This document shows, in pieces, positions 8,842 through 22,347 of a DNA stretch of 25,286 nucleotides. The stretch covers positions 1-25,286 of IMG/VR virus record IMGVR_UViG_3300025669_000178; one strand, written 5' to 3'. A program made the translations under genes and the position numbers. The notes below the pieces were generated by a model. It was not told the origin of the DNA, searched no databases, and was given only the letters and a program-made list of their open reading frames with translations. Source of the stretch: a virus. Numbering within the stretch: position 1 is the first letter of the stretch; the number at the start of each line of letters is the position of its first letter.

Positions 8842-9690
8842 TTACCTCCTTTTAGATTCCTTCTTTTTCTTTTTTCTTAATGCTTTCTTCTCTTGATATT
8901 TAACTACATCTTCATATTTAATTACTTTACTGTGGTCTGTATAAAGTGTTTCTAATTTAGGAACAATACTTGTTTGAAAAGGAAGCCATTGCAAATCTTG
9001 CCCCTTGATTGGGAGATTTTTTAATTGTTCTAATATAGGTTCTTCTATAAATTTAGGAAGCGTAAGTAAATTAACACATAACATTCTATTTTCATAATCT
9101 TCTTCTGTTAAAATTTCATTAACTAAATTATCAGCAGTTTCTTTATTAATTTTTTTAGCAAGTAAAAGGTCTACATTAAAGTTTTCAGGTCTAATTTTAT
9201 ATGACCCTTTTTTTGATTTATATTTTATTTTTGGAGTAAATATTTTTACATTTGGATAATTCCACATTTGTTCTAAATCTGAATCAAAAGTTGCTAATAT
9301 TACTTCTCTATCTTTAAAATATCTACAAGCTACAGCCATAATATCATCTGCTTCCATTCTATCTAATTGTATAATATGAAAATCTGTTGCTTTATCTAAT
9401 TGTAATAAGAGTTCGTTAAATTGTTTAAATAAAGTATCCCAATCAAGCCCTGATTTTGCTCGTTGTTCATTTCTATTTGCTTTATATGTTTTTTCATAAT
9501 CTTTTCTCCAGCTATTTCTCCCATCTACACATATTATAATAGTATCGTTTTCATCAACTCCTATTTTTCTTAAATAAGAAAGCATCATTACACATGCAGT
9601 ATAAGTAGGTGGAACAGCTTTGTTAATTATAGAAGCATAACAAGCTATGTGCAAAACCATTCCCCAGTCTATTAAAATGACCTTATTCAT
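8842..9690 (-). CDS. 5'-3' exonuclease / flap endonuclease (T4 RNase H / T5 FEN-like)
   Basis: A 282-aa protein with the FEN/PIN-like acidic sites: D8 in L-I-D-W-G, D56 in C-V-D-G, the R-K-D-Y-K-A-N-R arch region (about 62-73), E113-A-D115-D116, and D136-S-D138. The C-terminal third (about 160-260) would hold the helix-turn region for DNA binding, and the tail is Lys/Arg-rich. These enzymes remove RNA primers and 5' flaps during replication. Start by ATGA overlap with the homing endonuclease upstream, with GGGAATAATACA as leader. Confidence 0.85.
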   Translation of the reverse strand: MNKVILIDWGMVLHIACYASIINKAVPPTYTACVMMLSYLRKIGVDENDTIIICVDGRNSWRKDYEKTYKANRNEQRAKSGLDWDTLFKQFNELLLQLDKATDFHIIQLDRMEADDIMAVACRYFKDREVILATFDSDLEQMWNYPNVKIFTPKIKYKSKKGSYKIRPENFNVDLLLAKKINKETADNLVNEILTEEDYENRMLCVNLLTLPKFIEEPILEQLKNLPIKGQDLQWLPFQTSIVPKLETLYTDHSKVIKYEDVVKYQEKKALRKKKKKESKRR

Positions 9691-10379
9691 TGTATTATTC
9701 CCATTTCTTGTAAATCTTTCTGCATTAATAGTTTTATATTCTCTTTTGGATAATACTTTTTAAATAAATTAAATCTTTTTCTTGATTTATCTCTCCAATA
9801 TCCTTTAATCTCAATGTATAAATCCCATTCAGGAATATAGAAGTCTGGTAAATATGATGTTTCTTTGAAATAAAATCTTTTAGATTCATATAACCATTTT
9901 ATACTATTTAAATCTAAAAATTGTGCATATTTATATTCCCAAGTAGAACGCATCCAAATATTATTATATAATATTTTCTTTCCATGAGGAGATATTTGTC
10001 CAAACATCCCATTTCGCCTTCCTTTACAAGCACAATTAGGGCATCTAACATGTTGATAATTACTTATTTTTTTATTACAATCTATACAATAATAAATTTT
10101 TGAACTTCTACCATCAATATAATTAGGAGCGTTTATACCTCTAAGTTTTTTTCTCATTTTATCTTTGGATGTTGTTGTATGATGTTTACCAAACATTCCG
10201 TTTTTAATTCCTTTATTTGTTTCTGATAATGGTCTACATTTAATTTTATATTTTTTAAATAATAAATAAAGCAAACCACGAGAACATCCAATTTCTTTAG
10301 CTATTTGTATTTGTGATTTTTGTTTTTTTATATACTCTTTTTTTAAAAAGATTTTATTTATATTATATACTTTATTCAT
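9687..10379 (-). CDS. Free-standing homing endonuclease, NUMOD3 plus PD-(D/E)XK-like (Vsr-type) nuclease
   Basis: A 230-aa protein. Residues about 10-50 are a helix-turn-helix (I-A-K-E-I-G-C-S-R-G-L-L-Y). N-G-M-F-G-K-H-H and later N-G-M-F-G-Q are NUMOD3-type DNA-binding repeats flanking a C-x-x-C...C-P-N-C zinc finger. The C-terminal nuclease has R-S-T-W-E-Y-K-Y-A, Y-L-P-D-F-Y-I-P-E and the E-I-K-G core. This resembles selfish endonucleases inserted between phage genes. Its start and stop overlap bS21 (TAATG) and the FEN gene (ATGA), so it is fully embedded in the operon. Its N-terminal helix-turn-helix resembles that of the HNH gene at 14376-15161. Confidence 0.8.
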   Translation of the reverse strand: MNKVYNINKIFLKKEYIKKQKSQIQIAKEIGCSRGLLYLLFKKYKIKCRPLSETNKGIKNGMFGKHHTTTSKDKMRKKLRGINAPNYIDGRSSKIYYCIDCNKKISNYQHVRCPNCACKGRRNGMFGQISPHGKKILYNNIWMRSTWEYKYAQFLDLNSIKWLYESKRFYFKETSYLPDFYIPEWDLYIEIKGYWRDKSRKRFNLFKKYYPKENIKLLMQKDLQEMGIIQ

Positions 10380-14375: not shown

Positions 14376-15161
14376 TTAAGGTTGCAAAGTTGCAATGAAG
14401 GTTTTAAAATATTTAATCCAATAGTCTCTATTAAAATTTACTCGTATATTACATTCATTACAAAGTGTTAATAAATTAGTTTCTTTACATTGATTTTTAT
14501 CATAGTCAATATGATGAACTGCTAATTTTATTCCATAAACTATTATATGTTCTTCTTCTGTTATTCCGCATTTTTGGCAAGTGTAATGGTCTCTTTTACG
14601 AATTTTCTCTTTTAATTCTTGATTAAATTCTATAGGATATTTCTCAAAAGATTTTCCACCTTGCCAATTTGGATGTTTCTCTCCTGTAAATGCTAAACTT
14701 ATTTTTTTCTTTGTTTTTTCTGTATGATGATTACCTTTATGAACACAAGAAGCACATAACCCAGAACCATAAAATCCTGAAGAAAATGTAATTTTTTTAT
14801 TACAAATTTTACATTTATATTGTTTTAAAGTTCTACCATCTTTAAACATTCCACTATTTTTACCAAATAAATGCACATCAAACATCGGATTATTCTTACC
14901 TTTCGTTCTTTCGCTCATTTTTTTATTTCTGTTTTCTTGGGATTTTTTTGATAATTTTATTGGTTGTCTTTTATTTAATTTATAAGCTAATTTTAAACTT
15001 TGAGAAATAGTTCTAATAGGAATATTATATCTTATTAATCTATCTCTAATAACCCAATCCGTCTGCTGAAGTTGATTAGCTATTTCTTTAATAGTTTTTA
15101 AATTATTGATATATTCTTTAACTAAAAATTCTTTAGTTATATTATATTTTAATTTGTTCAT
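14376..15161 (-). CDS. Free-standing HNH homing endonuclease with NUMOD3 repeats
   Basis: A 261-aa protein. The N-terminal helix-turn-helix (T-I-K-E-I-A-N-Q-L-Q-Q-T) is akin to that at 9687-10379. G-K-N-N-P-M-F-D and G-K-N-S-G-M-F are NUMOD3-type motifs, C-K-I-C...C-A-S-C is a zinc finger, and G-E-K-H-P-N-W follows. The HNH nuclease has R-D-H-Y-T-C-Q-K-C-G, V-H-H-I-D-Y-D and L-T-L-C-N-E-C-N. These proteins cut intron- or gene-less alleles and spread by repair. It starts by ATGA overlap with the resolvase-like gene, behind AGAGGTAATAAAAAA. Confidence 0.88.
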   Translation of the reverse strand: MNKLKYNITKEFLVKEYINNLKTIKEIANQLQQTDWVIRDRLIRYNIPIRTISQSLKLAYKLNKRQPIKLSKKSQENRNKKMSERTKGKNNPMFDVHLFGKNSGMFKDGRTLKQYKCKICNKKITFSSGFYGSGLCASCVHKGNHHTEKTKKKISLAFTGEKHPNWQGGKSFEKYPIEFNQELKEKIRKRDHYTCQKCGITEEEHIIVYGIKLAVHHIDYDKNQCKETNLLTLCNECNIRVNFNRDYWIKYFKTFIATLQP

Positions 15162-16768: not shown

Positions 16769-17965
16769 CTATTTATTTATATATCTTACAAATGCTCCAT
16801 TATTTATTGAAGGTTTAACTTTAGAAATTTCATTAACAGGAGCAATATATTCTCCTGTTACTAAAGCATTAAGTTTTGCTTCTAATTCTTCTATCCTTGT
16901 TTCTTCATACGATTTGCCCATTTTGAAAGTTACTTTAACACCCATTACATCTACTTTATTTCTTGTAAAATTGTATCTTACAAATGGTTTTACTTTCCAT
17001 TTTCTTGTATCTATAATTCTTACCTGACCTTCGACAACGACCTGAGTTTGTTCTAATTCTCCAACCCTATCATCTAAGTCATTTATTTTTTCTGTATTAG
17101 TAGTTATATTTTTAGTGTTTTCATCAATCTGTTTTGAATGTCTTTCATCTAATACACCATCTTCTCCTTGTAAATCTGTGTAATTTCCCCATGTTCCATC
17201 TATATCTTCAAACCTTAATTCTGTTCCTTTCCATTCATGCTTAGGTTTATCTCCCTTTTCACCTTGTTCTCCATCAGCACCGTCAGCACCTTCTTGACCT
17301 GTTTCTCCTAATTCTCCATCTGTTCCATCAAGACCACCTGCCCCTATATCACCCTTCTCTCCTTGTATGCCTTGTTCGCCAATATTTCCTTTATCTCCTT
17401 TAACACCATTTTTGCCATCTATACCATCTTGTCCATCTGTTCCATCAAGACCATCTATACCATCGTTACCTTTATCTCCTTTATAACCTCTTAACCCCCT
17501 TGCTCCAACATCTCCTTTTTCTCCTCTATATCCACGTTCTCCTTTTGCTCCTGTTTTTCCTATATAACCTCTATTTCCTCTTGCTCCTGTATCGCCCTTA
17601 TCACCTTTAGCTCCATCTTGTCCATCTATACCATCGACTCCATTTATACCATTTTGTCCATTTATACCATCAATACCATTTGTTCCATCTGCTCCTGTAT
17701 TACCTTTACAACCTTTATATCCTCTTAGCCCTCTTGTTCCATCTTTGCCATCAGCACCATCATCGCCTTTTTCACCTTTTAAAAAATCAGCATCAACCCA
17801 AGTGCCTTCACTTCTTGCACCTGTATTTCTACCTGTTCCTACTAATATTTGCCCTTCTTCACAATCATTTGTATCTGTTACTCCTCCATGAGTTCCACAA
17901 TAACCAGTTGCCACCAAATTAACACTTAACAATACAATCGCAATCGCTATCAGTAGCCTTTTCAT
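16769..17965 (-). CDS. Secreted collagen-like (Gly-X-Y) protein
   Basis: A 398-aa protein. Residues 1-20 form a signal-type segment (M-K-R-L-L-I-A-I-A-I-V-L-L), followed by G-Y-C23, which could also be a lipoprotein-like site. A head with D-T-N-D-C-E-E-G-Q-I-L-V-G-T-G follows, then 59 uninterrupted Gly-X-Y triplets from G64 to 240, rich in K-G-D and D-G-x. Next come a W-containing link, a coiled coil (about 272-310), a beta-type region (K-P-F-V-R-Y-N-F-T) and a short helix. Collagen-like stalks form trimers. Because of the signal sequence it is more likely exported to the cell surface than an internal tail fibre. It is the second gene after the promoter at 18281. Confidence 0.85.
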   Translation of the reverse strand: MKRLLIAIAIVLLSVNLVATGYCGTHGGVTDTNDCEEGQILVGTGRNTGARSEGTWVDADFLKGEKGDDGADGKDGTRGLRGYKGCKGNTGADGTNGIDGINGQNGINGVDGIDGQDGAKGDKGDTGARGNRGYIGKTGAKGERGYRGEKGDVGARGLRGYKGDKGNDGIDGLDGTDGQDGIDGKNGVKGDKGNIGEQGIQGEKGDIGAGGLDGTDGELGETGQEGADGADGEQGEKGDKPKHEWKGTELRFEDIDGTWGNYTDLQGEDGVLDERHSKQIDENTKNITTNTEKINDLDDRVGELEQTQVVVEGQVRIIDTRKWKVKPFVRYNFTRNKVDVMGVKVTFKMGKSYEETRIEELEAKLNALVTGEYIAPVNEISKVKPSINNGAFVRYINK

Positions 17966-19155: not shown

Positions 19156-20958
19156 CTATTTACGCTTTATCGCTTCATCACAACGCTTTTTTATATCATC
19201 TATATTAACATGAGCATATATCATTGTAGTTCGTATATCACTATGCCCCATTAATTCTTTTATATCTTCTATTGACATACCTATTTTTCTACAATAAGTT
19301 GCAAAACTATTACCTGTAATAAAGATTTTATTGTTTCTTTTAGCTATCCAAGTTTTATTTTTAGTAGAAGGACACCAAATTATACCTTTATAATTTATTT
19401 TTTGAATTTGGTTTAAATAAACATTGCAATTATTTTTATAAGATATATAAGTGCGATATTTATTTTCAGAATTATTTTTAGAAGATAGGGTTCTATAACC
19501 TAACAAAACAGCTATTATTCGTAATAATTCAATAGTTTTTGGATTTTGGTCGCAAAACTCTTGCCGACTGCCATCTGCTAACATCATAGCATTAAAAATT
19601 TCCTTTAAATTAGATTTTTTTAATTGTAAAATAGTAGATAAAATTGGTTCATTGTTTTTAGTTAAATATTTCCATATCCAATTTTGAGAGCCTTTTAATA
19701 TTCTAAACACCTGCATACGATAAGGTCTACCTGTAAATTTATTAATATTATATTTTTGTTTATGATTACTATATTTTAATCCACTTTTTTGTAATATATG
19801 CTCTATTTTAATACAGTTATTTGGATTTGCTGTTAGGGATTGAGCAATAGTAATATTACAATATTTACTTGTTTTTTTGATATGAATATTTCCATCAGTT
19901 AATATTAATCCAAGTAAATATGCTTTTTCGTTTTTTATGTGTTTATTTCCTTTATACTTATTCCCAACTAAAATTTTAATTAATCTTTTATTAGGTATTG
20001 TTAATAATTCTGATATAGTTAAAAGTTCCCATTTATTTCTCCAAGCTGTCCATCGTTTATAATCAAATTGCTTTACCATTGCTATTTTAAAAATATTTTT
20101 ATGTTCTGGGCTAACTAAACTATCTATATATCTATTTTTTAAATTATACATAATACCTTGATATTTATATTTAAATATTTTTAATAAAGGGGTAAGTTCT
20201 ATAATATCTTTTTTTAAATTATAATTAAAAACTTTTTCACCTATTTTTAATTCGTTATATTTTTTCCAACCATTCAAAGTAAGTATTTCAGTATCTTCAC
20301 TTACGCAATGTCTTAGTAAGTGGGGGTGAAAATTTATATCTTTAAACCAAGAATTATAATTTTGAAACCATTTAGCTAAATTCGCAGAATTAATATTAAA
20401 AGCATTAATATTTTCAGGTTCAACAGAAAAATAATCTTGAATAAATATAGACGCTTTTTTACTTACTATTAAACCTAATCTTTCTTTTTTTACTTTTGGC
20501 ATATAAAATTTAATAACTCTTTTCTTTAAATCTATATTTTCTCTTTTAAGTAAATGTATTTCTCCTATTCTTAATCCAGTATAAAACATAAAATATAAAA
20601 TAGCTTTCATTTTCATAGGATTAGGAGATACGCTTTCTATAACAGGTATAATATTGTTTTTTAAATATTCTTCTGTAATAAATTTAGGTAATCGTTCAGG
20701 TAATTTTTCATCTAAAGACACTATATTTTTATCTTTATTTAGAAATTTTAAAAATGACCTCACAGCACTTTTATATTTATTAACACTTGCCCCTGATTGA
20801 TTTTTTCTAAGCTCTATAAAGTAATTAGATAGAGTTTCTTTAGTCAAGTTTTCTATCTTAACTTTTTTAAGTAATTCTCTTATACTATCTACATATCCTC
20901 TAATAGTATTTTGAGCTAAACAATTTGATATAAGATGAGATTTATATTTTTCTAACAT
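19156..20958 (-). CDS. Tyrosine recombinase (Xer/phage integrase) interrupted by an intein
   Basis: A 600-aa precursor. Residues 1-85 form the SAM-like core-binding domain. The catalytic domain holds R130 (T-G-L-R-I-G-E), Lys near 157-158, H213-L-L-R216, H572 (G-H-S-D) and Y581 (M-I-Y-A-H). Residues 218-550 are an intein inserted after H-L-L-R-H217. Removing them restores the usual H-L-L-R-H-S-F-A-T-Y and a 267-aa protein of normal XerC/D or integrase length. It catalyses site-specific strand exchange for integration or for resolving dimers. AAGGAGAATACAG leads ATG 20958, inside the upstream gene's end (17-bp overlap). The repeat-rich region at 18310-18647 is a candidate target site. Confidence 0.93.
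   Translation of the reverse strand: MLEKYKSHLISNCLAQNTIRGYVDSIRELLKKVKIENLTKETLSNYFIELRKNQSGASVNKYKSAVRSFLKFLNKDKNIVSLDEKLPERLPKFITEEYLKNNIIPVIESVSPNPMKMKAILYFMFYTGLRIGEIHLLKRENIDLKKRVIKFYMPKVKKERLGLIVSKKASIFIQDYFSVEPENINAFNINSANLAKWFQNYNSWFKDINFHPHLLRHCVSEDTEILTLNGWKKYNELKIGEKVFNYNLKKDIIELTPLLKIFKYKYQGIMYNLKNRYIDSLVSPEHKNIFKIAMVKQFDYKRWTAWRNKWELLTISELLTIPNKRLIKILVGNKYKGNKHIKNEKAYLLGLILTDGNIHIKKTSKYCNITIAQSLTANPNNCIKIEHILQKSGLKYSNHKQKYNINKFTGRPYRMQVFRILKGSQNWIWKYLTKNNEPILSTILQLKKSNLKEIFNAMMLADGSRQEFCDQNPKTIELLRIIAVLLGYRTLSSKNNSENKYRTYISYKNNCNVYLNQIQKINYKGIIWCPSTKNKTWIAKRNNKIFITGNSFATYCRKIGMSIEDIKELMGHSDIRTTMIYAHVNIDDIKKRCDEAIKRK
19309..20307 (-). other. Intein with LAGLIDADG (DOD) homing endonuclease, 333 aa
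   Basis: Encodes residues 218-550 of the recombinase precursor. The N-terminal splice block starts C218-V-S-E-D-T-E-I-L-T-L-N-G-W, and a block-B-like S-P-E-H sits at 283-286. Two LAGLIDADG helices are seen, L-L-G-L-I-L-T-D-G (348-356) and I-F-N-A-M-M-L-A-D-G (454-463). The C-terminal end is W-I-A-K-R-N-N-K-I-F-I-T-G-N550 followed by the +1 Ser551. The penultimate residue is Gly rather than the common His, which is known in other phage inteins. Splicing should be autocatalytic. Confidence 0.9.
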
Positions 20959-21202
20959 CTGTATTCTCCTTAATGTAATTATTTAATTTATCTTTTTGTC
21001 CGTTTTTATGTGCTATGGTTACAATAGACAACATTTGTTTTAATATATCTACAAATAATAAATTAGCATTTGGAATATCATAAACTATTTTATTACCTTC
21101 TTTTTTTGTGAGTAATTTTCCTTCTCTTACTAACTCTTTTTTAGCTAAATCAAAGAGTGGGTGGGTTATAAGTTTTTCAAAATCTAAATAAGTTTTTTTC
21201 AT
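20942..21202 (-). CDS. Hypothetical protein between RuvB-like and recombinase genes
   Basis: An 86-aa protein, Lys-rich start (M-K-K-T-Y-L-D-F-E-K), a G-K-L-L-T-K-K-E-G-N-K-I-V-Y-D-I beta turn and helical ends. The short charged hairpin could be a winged-helix-like piece. It is coupled to the RuvB-like gene by ATGA and overlaps the recombinase start by 17 bp. It might be an accessory factor of either, which is inference from position only. Confidence 0.65.
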   Translation of the reverse strand: MKKTYLDFEKLITHPLFDLAKKELVREGKLLTKKEGNKIVYDIPNANLLFVDILKQMLSIVTIAHKNGQKDKLNNYIKENTDVRKI

Positions 21203-22347
21203 TGTATTATCCTTTCTGATAATTCTTCTAAAAGCTGTTTCCCTTTAGGGCTTATAATTCGGCTGGGGGTTCTATTAATATATCCAAATTCATATAAAAA
21301 ACCTTCAAATTCTTCTGTATATTGACGTTGTGTCAGCCCTGCTCTTAATGCCACCGCATTAGCTCCCATAGGTCTTATAGCTTTATTTAATACTTGTAAT
21401 ATTTTAATATCAACTTCGGTTAATCCATTTTTAACTATTCGTCTATTTTTTAATACTTTTTGTATATCTTGCTCAACTATAAAATCTTCAAGTAAACTTA
21501 TTGAAATACGAGGGCAAAATTTACAAGAATTTGAAATTATATTTAAAATTTCATTAGATACGTTATCATTAGGATATAATTGTGTTTTATATTGATTAAG
21601 TATTGTTTTAATATCTTCGGCAGAATAGGCTGTAAAATGAATAGCGTGAGAAATTCTGTCAAGGGTATCTGGGTTATTTTTTATAAGAGTATCTTTAGAA
21701 ATTGAAGCTCCTGCAAATATAAACGGTTTTATTTTCTTTCCTGAAATTTCAAATTCTTCTATAATAGGATTTAACATTTTTATTATAGTTTTATCCATAC
21801 TATCCATTTCATCAATAAAAAATATTACATTTTTTTCAGGGCAGGTGGTAATTTCATTAACAATATTAACTAATTCTTCGGGGTGGTCTAATTGCTTTCC
21901 CACTCTAATAATCAGCTTTGCTTTGAGTTCAGTTGCCAATAATTTTATAAATGTAGTTTTACCCATACCTTGTCTTGCACTTAAAAATAAATGCCCTTTA
22001 ATTCCTCTATTTACTTTTTTAATAATAGTTTTAGCTTGTTCTTTTGCTTGTTCTTGTGAAACAAATTCTAAAAAATTGCGTGGGCGAAATTCAAATTTAC
22101 TTATTTCTTCTCCTTTATATTCAATGATTTTAGAAGTGTCATATTTACCACTCACAATTTCTACTTTAGTAGGTTCTGTTTCCGCATTTTCGGCTTGTTC
22201 CTCTTCATCACTAACAGAAGATATTGAAATGCTATTTGCAGTAGAATTTAATATAGGTTTTGCTATATAATTAATTATTTTAGGAAATAATCTTAATAAT
22301 ATATATATAGATAATCCGAAATATAATAATATCCAAAATAAATACAT
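21199..22347 (-). CDS. Membrane-anchored RuvB-like AAA+ ATPase
   Basis: A 382-aa protein. Residues 2-22 are a hydrophobic anchor, followed by a Ser/Glu-rich linker (35-75) and a RuvB-type core. F-R-P-R-N-F-L-E-F-V-S-Q-E matches RPxxlxefiGQe. Walker A is S-A-R-Q-G-M-G-K130-T-T, Walker B is F-F-I-D179-E180, sensor 1 is F-A-G-A-S, and R231 of D-R-I-S-H is a candidate arginine finger. The C-terminal winged helix (308-377, G-L-T-E-V-D, G-Y-I-N-R-T-P-S-R) is like RuvB. RuvB drives branch migration with RuvA; no ruvA is in this window. Membrane anchoring is unusual and suggests another DNA-remodelling job at the envelope. Confidence 0.85.
   Translation of the reverse strand: MYLFWILLYFGLSIYILLRLFPKIINYIAKPILNSTANSISISSVSDEEEQAENAETEPTKVEIVSGKYDTSKIIEYKGEEISKFEFRPRNFLEFVSQEQAKEQAKTIIKKVNRGIKGHLFLSARQGMGKTTFIKLLATELKAKLIIRVGKQLDHPEELVNIVNEITTCPEKNVIFFIDEMDSMDKTIIKMLNPIIEEFEISGKKIKPFIFAGASISKDTLIKNNPDTLDRISHAIHFTAYSAEDIKTILNQYKTQLYPNDNVSNEILNIISNSCKFCPRISISLLEDFIVEQDIQKVLKNRRIVKNGLTEVDIKILQVLNKAIRPMGANAVALRAGLTQRQYTEEFEGFLYEFGYINRTPSRIISPKGKQLLEELSERIIQ

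Follow-up and report, generated by a model that had tools for sequence, protein, structure and literature searches.

How does a tyrosine recombinase accommodate 333 additional residues inside its active site, and what are those residues? The question is raised by a gene in a viral sequence of 25,286 nucleotides (IMG/VR record IMGVR_UViG_3300025669_000178, hereafter the window). The original prediction was that this gene carries a LAGLIDADG intein that must be removed before the enzyme can work. We compared the insert and the flanking recombinase segments (exteins) with sequences and structures of known inteins and recombinases, and with other genomes that are interrupted at the same position.

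An interrupted Xer-type recombinase

The window encodes a precursor of 600 amino acids in one open frame, in which a Xer-type tyrosine recombinase is divided by the insert (Table 1). Both a SAM-like N-terminal domain (PF02899) and the catalytic domain (PF00589) are matched, the latter in two pieces, one on each side of the insert. The R-K-H-R-H-Y catalytic set is complete (R130, K155, H213, R216, H572 and Y581). These residues are invariant in 19 interrupted recombinases, except for K155, which is nearly so. In domain order and in catalytic residues the exteins agree with the Xer family, including XerA and XerC/XerD (PDB: XerA 5hxy, 3e-12; XerD 1a0p, 4e-12). They differ from that family in being interrupted by an intein and in scoring below the XerA, XerC and XerD equivalog cut-offs (112.7 vs 220, 92.8 vs 335 and 89.4 vs 330 bits), scores for which the match is split by the intein.

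The insert spans C218 to N550 and sits between H217 of HPHLLRH and S551 of SFATY, one residue past the catalytic R216. It parts R130, K155, H213 and R216 from H572 and Y581. AlphaFold modelling of the complete precursor gave a result of low quality (pLDDT 65.5, pTM 0.35), probably because its alignment mixed two intein types, and this model was discarded.

Table 1. Features of the interrupted recombinase gene and its upstream neighbours in the window.
Feature	Coordinates	Strand	Evidence
Tyrosine recombinase precursor, Xer-type, 600 aa	19156..20958	(-)	Phage_integrase 3e-17, Phage_int_SAM_1 1.1e-9, XerA/XerC/XerD models 1e-25 to 1e-32
N-extein, 217 aa: SAM-like domain and catalytic R130, K155, H213, R216	20308..20958	(-)	Columns invariant or nearly so in 19 recombinases
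Intein, 333 aa, C218-N550 of precursor	19309..20307	(-)	End-to-end matches to phage inteins; intein fold; recombinase-intein clade
Hint splicing domain, N-terminal half, intein residues about 1-112 (Cys1, block-B His69)	19972..20307	(-)	Invariant C1 and H69; domain edge approximate
LAGLIDADG endonuclease domain, intein residues about 113-294	19426..19971	(-)	PI-PkoII matched at profile positions 110-296; I-DmoI and I-SceI found by Foldseek
First LAGLIDADG motif LLGLILTDG, acidic D138	19891..19917	(-)	D138 and G139 invariant in four recombinase inteins
Second LAGLIDADG motif IFNAMMLADG, acidic D245	19570..19599	(-)	D245 and G246 invariant in four recombinase inteins
C-terminal Hint segment, blocks F/G (WCPST ... 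ITGN)	19309..19425	(-)	Also found in other phage inteins; all 36 aligned inteins have N333
C-extein, 50 aa and stop: +1 Ser551, catalytic H572, nucleophile Y581	19156..19308	(-)	Invariant columns
Small ORF just upstream of recombinase	20942..21202	(-)	No family match
RuvB-like AAA+ ATPase, two genes upstream of recombinase	21199..22347	(-)	RuvB_N 6e-15, RuvB_C 5e-8

The insert is a LAGLIDADG intein

Residues 1 to 333 of the insert align in tblastn with inserts in annotated phage genes for DNA methylases, DNA polymerases, ribonucleotide reductase (RNR) and TerL (E values down to 2e-23). The RNR gene is annotated with an intein splice site. The aligned phage inserts begin with Cys and end with Gly-Asn ahead of Ser, Thr or Cys. 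Phage class-1 LAGLIDADG inteins of DNA methylase, DNA polymerase, RNR, TerL and portal genes, such as those of mycobacteriophage Bobi gp73 and Salmonella phage Shivani NrdA, are likewise about 300-345 amino acids long. They too have Cys1, a WC or YC in block F, a central endonuclease domain, a GN end and Ser, Thr or Cys at position +1. They differ from the window's intein in their host proteins, are about 22-30% identical to it and fall outside the clade of recombinase inteins. A Prevotella Lak-phage match that seemed to span both the intein and the C-extein was rejected, as it belongs to a different interrupted protein, one that is nucleotidyltransferase-like and no recombinase.

The residues needed for class-1 splicing can be assigned. 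Cys1 and the C-terminal Asn333 are invariant in 36 aligned inteins, and the +1 residue is Ser551. The block-B T/SxxH motif is present as SPEH, with an invariant H69 and with Ser at position 66, which is nearly always Thr elsewhere. Two positions are non-canonical: the penultimate residue is Gly332 and not the usual, non-obligatory His, and the block-F Asp position is occupied by Cys. Gly is found in most related phage inteins, and the other phage inteins aligned likewise have the block-F Cys. Complete splicing has been shown for a class-1 intein with a penultimate Gly, that of the mycobacteriophage Bethlehem recombination directionality factor (RDF; PMC5050341). A class 3 intein is ruled out by the presence of Cys1 and the lack of a Trp two residues past the block-B His.

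Curated profiles, which the original prediction had proposed as a check, respond weakly to this insert. TIGR01445 (intein_Nterm, E = 0.0087) and LAGLIDADG_3 (E = 0.04) both stay below threshold, and Pfam Intein_splicing gives no match on the window's insert. Intein models do recognise most relatives at the same site, and Intein_splicing matches 16 of the 19 full interrupted precursors scanned. An AlphaFold model of the insert, built on the alignment of 36 inteins, has a mean pLDDT of 94 and resembles the TliVMA intein in Foldseek (E = 8.8e-13). VIA-align finds full-length matches to the inteins TliVMA (Z = 23.8), PI-PkoII (22.6) and PI-SceI (21.2). The modelled Hint fold is predicted to join both ends of the insert and to enclose the nuclease, with both splice junctions present. 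We conclude that an intein equipped with a LAGLIDADG endonuclease domain lies between H217 and Ser551 of a tyrosine recombinase. The boundaries originally proposed are exact.

Two intein lineages occupy the same site

Neither the complete precursor nor its spliced 267-residue form retrieved anything from viral contigs, and a DNA pattern specific to the junction succeeded. This pattern, P-H-x-x-R-H-Cys-(hydrophobic)-x-x-(D/E/G)-T, was run against contigs from viruses and genomes, after which the reading frames were checked. Of the 52 matches that this first pattern gave in genomes, roughly half were due to chance, without a recombinase frame. A looser viral pattern gave 45 stretches, among which the on-target matches were two recombinases already known and the rest were other genes or chance.

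The exact HxxRH^S/C site is occupied in viral contigs L004 and L006, in a Pacearchaeota genome (L037) and in about 20 more recombinases with a Cys-led insert, so that phages G013 and G014 and an archaeon share the position. The further recombinases are mostly from Patescibacteria, together with one from a Desulfobacterales MAG (L031) and one on a Thermoproteota contig (L035) that stops inside the insert. A pattern for the C-terminal junction added one viral contig (L102).

The inteins of the window, L004, L006 and L037 are 324-346 amino acids long and end in ...TGN^S (GN-type). All other complete ones are 420-427 amino acids long and end in ...SHN^S/C (HN-type). HN-type inteins take exactly this position in Xer recombinases that come mostly from Patescibacteria (L008, L009, L012, L015, L018, L020, L021, L025, L026, L027, L036, L044, L048, L054 and L056). 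They share the insertion point and a LAGLIDADG domain with the window's intein, whereas their greater length and canonical His-Asn end set them apart. Since the two types are just 14-20% identical, they represent two intein lineages at one bond. In eight Patescibacteria genomes the interrupted gene is the sole PF00589 protein found, although the absence of a second such gene is tentative because these genomes are mostly MAGs.

Inteins also occur in other viral genes. Elsewhere on the viral contig that carries L004, a different gene also contains an intein of broadly the same type (L133). Two viral phosphoesterase-like genes (L138 and L139) carry inteins at ...VFGNHGR^ ahead of Thr, again a conserved motif that looks catalytic.

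Sporadic occurrence and intein-free orthologs

In a tree of 42 phage inteins from many host genes, the four GN-type inteins of recombinases group together as a clade (support 100/99). They are 35-47% identical to each other and their host recombinases 22-33%. Inteins that are more alike than their hosts are the pattern predicted by transfer through homing.

A query with L037 matched 31 of the 39 genomes of its archaeal order, and the intein is present in one of these 31. In the intein-free orthologs, which are up to 64% identical, residues 1-226 abut residues 573 onward, in several cases with zero bases between them. The orthologs are thus contiguous across the site and the intein boundaries are exact for that lineage. 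Among the 60 genomes of one Patescibacteria family, about 54 have intein-free orthologs and two have the HN-type intein (2 of about 56 with an ortholog). Across a phylum sample of 380 genomes the junction pattern recovered a single one, the query genome itself, which is a lower bound because the pattern is strict. A plasmid recombinase (L182) is uninterrupted at the same residue (HPHTLRHTAAT).

A search for intein-free alleles in related phages had been proposed with the original prediction. The scan for close relatives of the window's virus, whose source is a 25-kb metagenomic fragment, returned two viruses and both bear the intein, and it is the archaeal and Patescibacteria orthologs that provide the empty sites. 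Sporadic occurrence combined with intact endonuclease motifs fits a selfish homing element.

Splicing and alternative explanations

The reading that we consider highly probable is a class-1-like intein that carries a homing endonuclease, homes into the active-site codons that tyrosine recombinases conserve, and has to splice before the enzyme can be active. The 600-residue precursor would be translated whole. Cys1 would attack the peptide bond after H217, the chain would be transferred to Ser551 and Asn550 would then cyclise. This would release the 333-residue intein and leave a ligated recombinase of 267 residues that keeps the full R-K-H-R-H-Y constellation. The free intein may cut intein-less alleles near the conserved HxxRH/SFAT codons, and recombination would copy the intein into them. 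As a selfish element it could persist because the active-site position shields it, given that only an exact deletion would leave the enzyme intact.

Both splicing and endonuclease activity are predicted from conserved residues. An active site that cannot form before splicing was part of the original prediction. The insert does split the catalytic constellation, and established tyrosine-recombinase chemistry suggests in addition that the unspliced precursor should be inactive. Preservation of the catalytic residues on both sides in such diverged lineages would be unexpected if the C-terminal piece stayed unspliced.

That splicing is also regulated is possible but unsupported. For the original suggestion that it may gate integration or dimer resolution we obtained no positive evidence, and none of the observations requires regulation. 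The intein could be kept until a signal such as DNA binding, redox state or infection stage arrives, so that splicing times recombination. The insertion does split the active site, and conditional splicing is established in other DNA-processing hosts, for example RadA (PMC8987985). Retention of the recombinase-intein clade in diverged hosts and the eight Patescibacteria genomes with a single PF00589 protein also agree with such a switch. Against it, selfish inteins typically insert in active sites as well, the intein is sporadic among intein-free orthologs, the endonuclease motifs are kept as in selfish inteins, and no sensor feature was identified. We therefore regard a conditional switch as unlikely. 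A mixed reading, in which HxxRH is a general landing site for inteins and some hosts splice conditionally to switch integration, dimer resolution or chromosome segregation, seems to us equally improbable.

A splicing-dead insert, which would leave the recombinase gene dead or split in function, is less probable still. The penultimate Gly and the block-F Cys could be read in this way, but other aligned phage inteins share these residues, and the RDF intein described above splices completely in spite of its penultimate Gly. The frame is open, and both exteins and all catalytic residues are kept in four diverged copies, which makes a dead insert unlikely because exteins of such diverged lineages retain every catalytic residue. 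The sub-threshold scores of the Pfam and NCBIfam intein models would also be compatible with an in-frame fusion or insertion of a free-standing LAGLIDADG nuclease gene, or with an assembly artefact. However, the Hint fold surrounds the nuclease with both splice junctions in place, exact intein-free alleles exist, and the same arrangement recurs in independent contigs (L115, L116 and L037). The fold match and the independent copies already refute a non-intein fusion, unless all of them are artefacts, which leaves it a negligible chance. Splicing by a homing, class-1-like intein remains our preferred explanation.

Genomic neighborhood

The RuvB-like ATPase encoded upstream of the recombinase has a hydrophobic N-terminus. 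Virus G014, the source of L006, encodes a 37% identical ATPase (L111:8022-9152) upstream of its own interrupted recombinase and shares one further gene with the window (41% identity). This suggests that ATPase and interrupted recombinase are a conserved pair. The Xer-like architecture without an arm-binding domain, together with the RuvB-like neighbor, leads us to favor a putative role in resolving replication or recombination intermediates over lysogenic integration.

The window also encodes two free-standing proteins that resemble homing endonucleases, an HNH/NUMOD3 protein (14376-15161) and a second one in which NUMOD3 accompanies a Holliday resolvase domain resembling T7 endonuclease I (9687-10379). 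A collagen-repeat protein (16769-17965) matches phage tail-fibre families.

Recombination proteins as intein hosts

The incomplete set of papers that we could search contained no report of an intein in a tyrosine recombinase, in XerC/XerD, in a phage integrase or in Patescibacteria. Mycobacteriophage inteins reside in TerL, RecB, RDF, methylases and other proteins, and the portion shown of the host table in PMC5050341 includes no integrase. The NCBIfam models matched are named for intein-containing GyrA, RtcB and radical-SAM proteins, and none named for a recombinase appeared among them. The original prediction called a recombinase an uncommon host. This agrees with the literature covered, but the site itself is used repeatedly, and by two lineages.

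The closest parallels are other recombination proteins. The host of the Bethlehem RDF intein also acts in phage site-specific recombination, but it is an accessory protein and not the recombinase itself. RecA and RadA carry inteins too, and in RadA splicing is responsive to ssDNA, as cited in PMC8987985. These hosts are homologous-recombination ATPases and unrelated to tyrosine recombinases. The element itself is an ordinary intein, and what appears to be new is its host family together with the shared site.

If this is correct, one more enzyme family joins the hosts of inteins, and two intein lineages that are not related have each taken the same active-site motif, in hosts that range over phages, archaea and bacteria. 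An enzyme that recombines DNA would itself harbor a mobile element in its active site, and in several reduced genomes such an element would interrupt the sole tyrosine recombinase detected. With intein-bearing and intein-free forms of one locus available for natural comparison, these recombinases would offer a clean system for asking whether splicing limits site-specific recombination.
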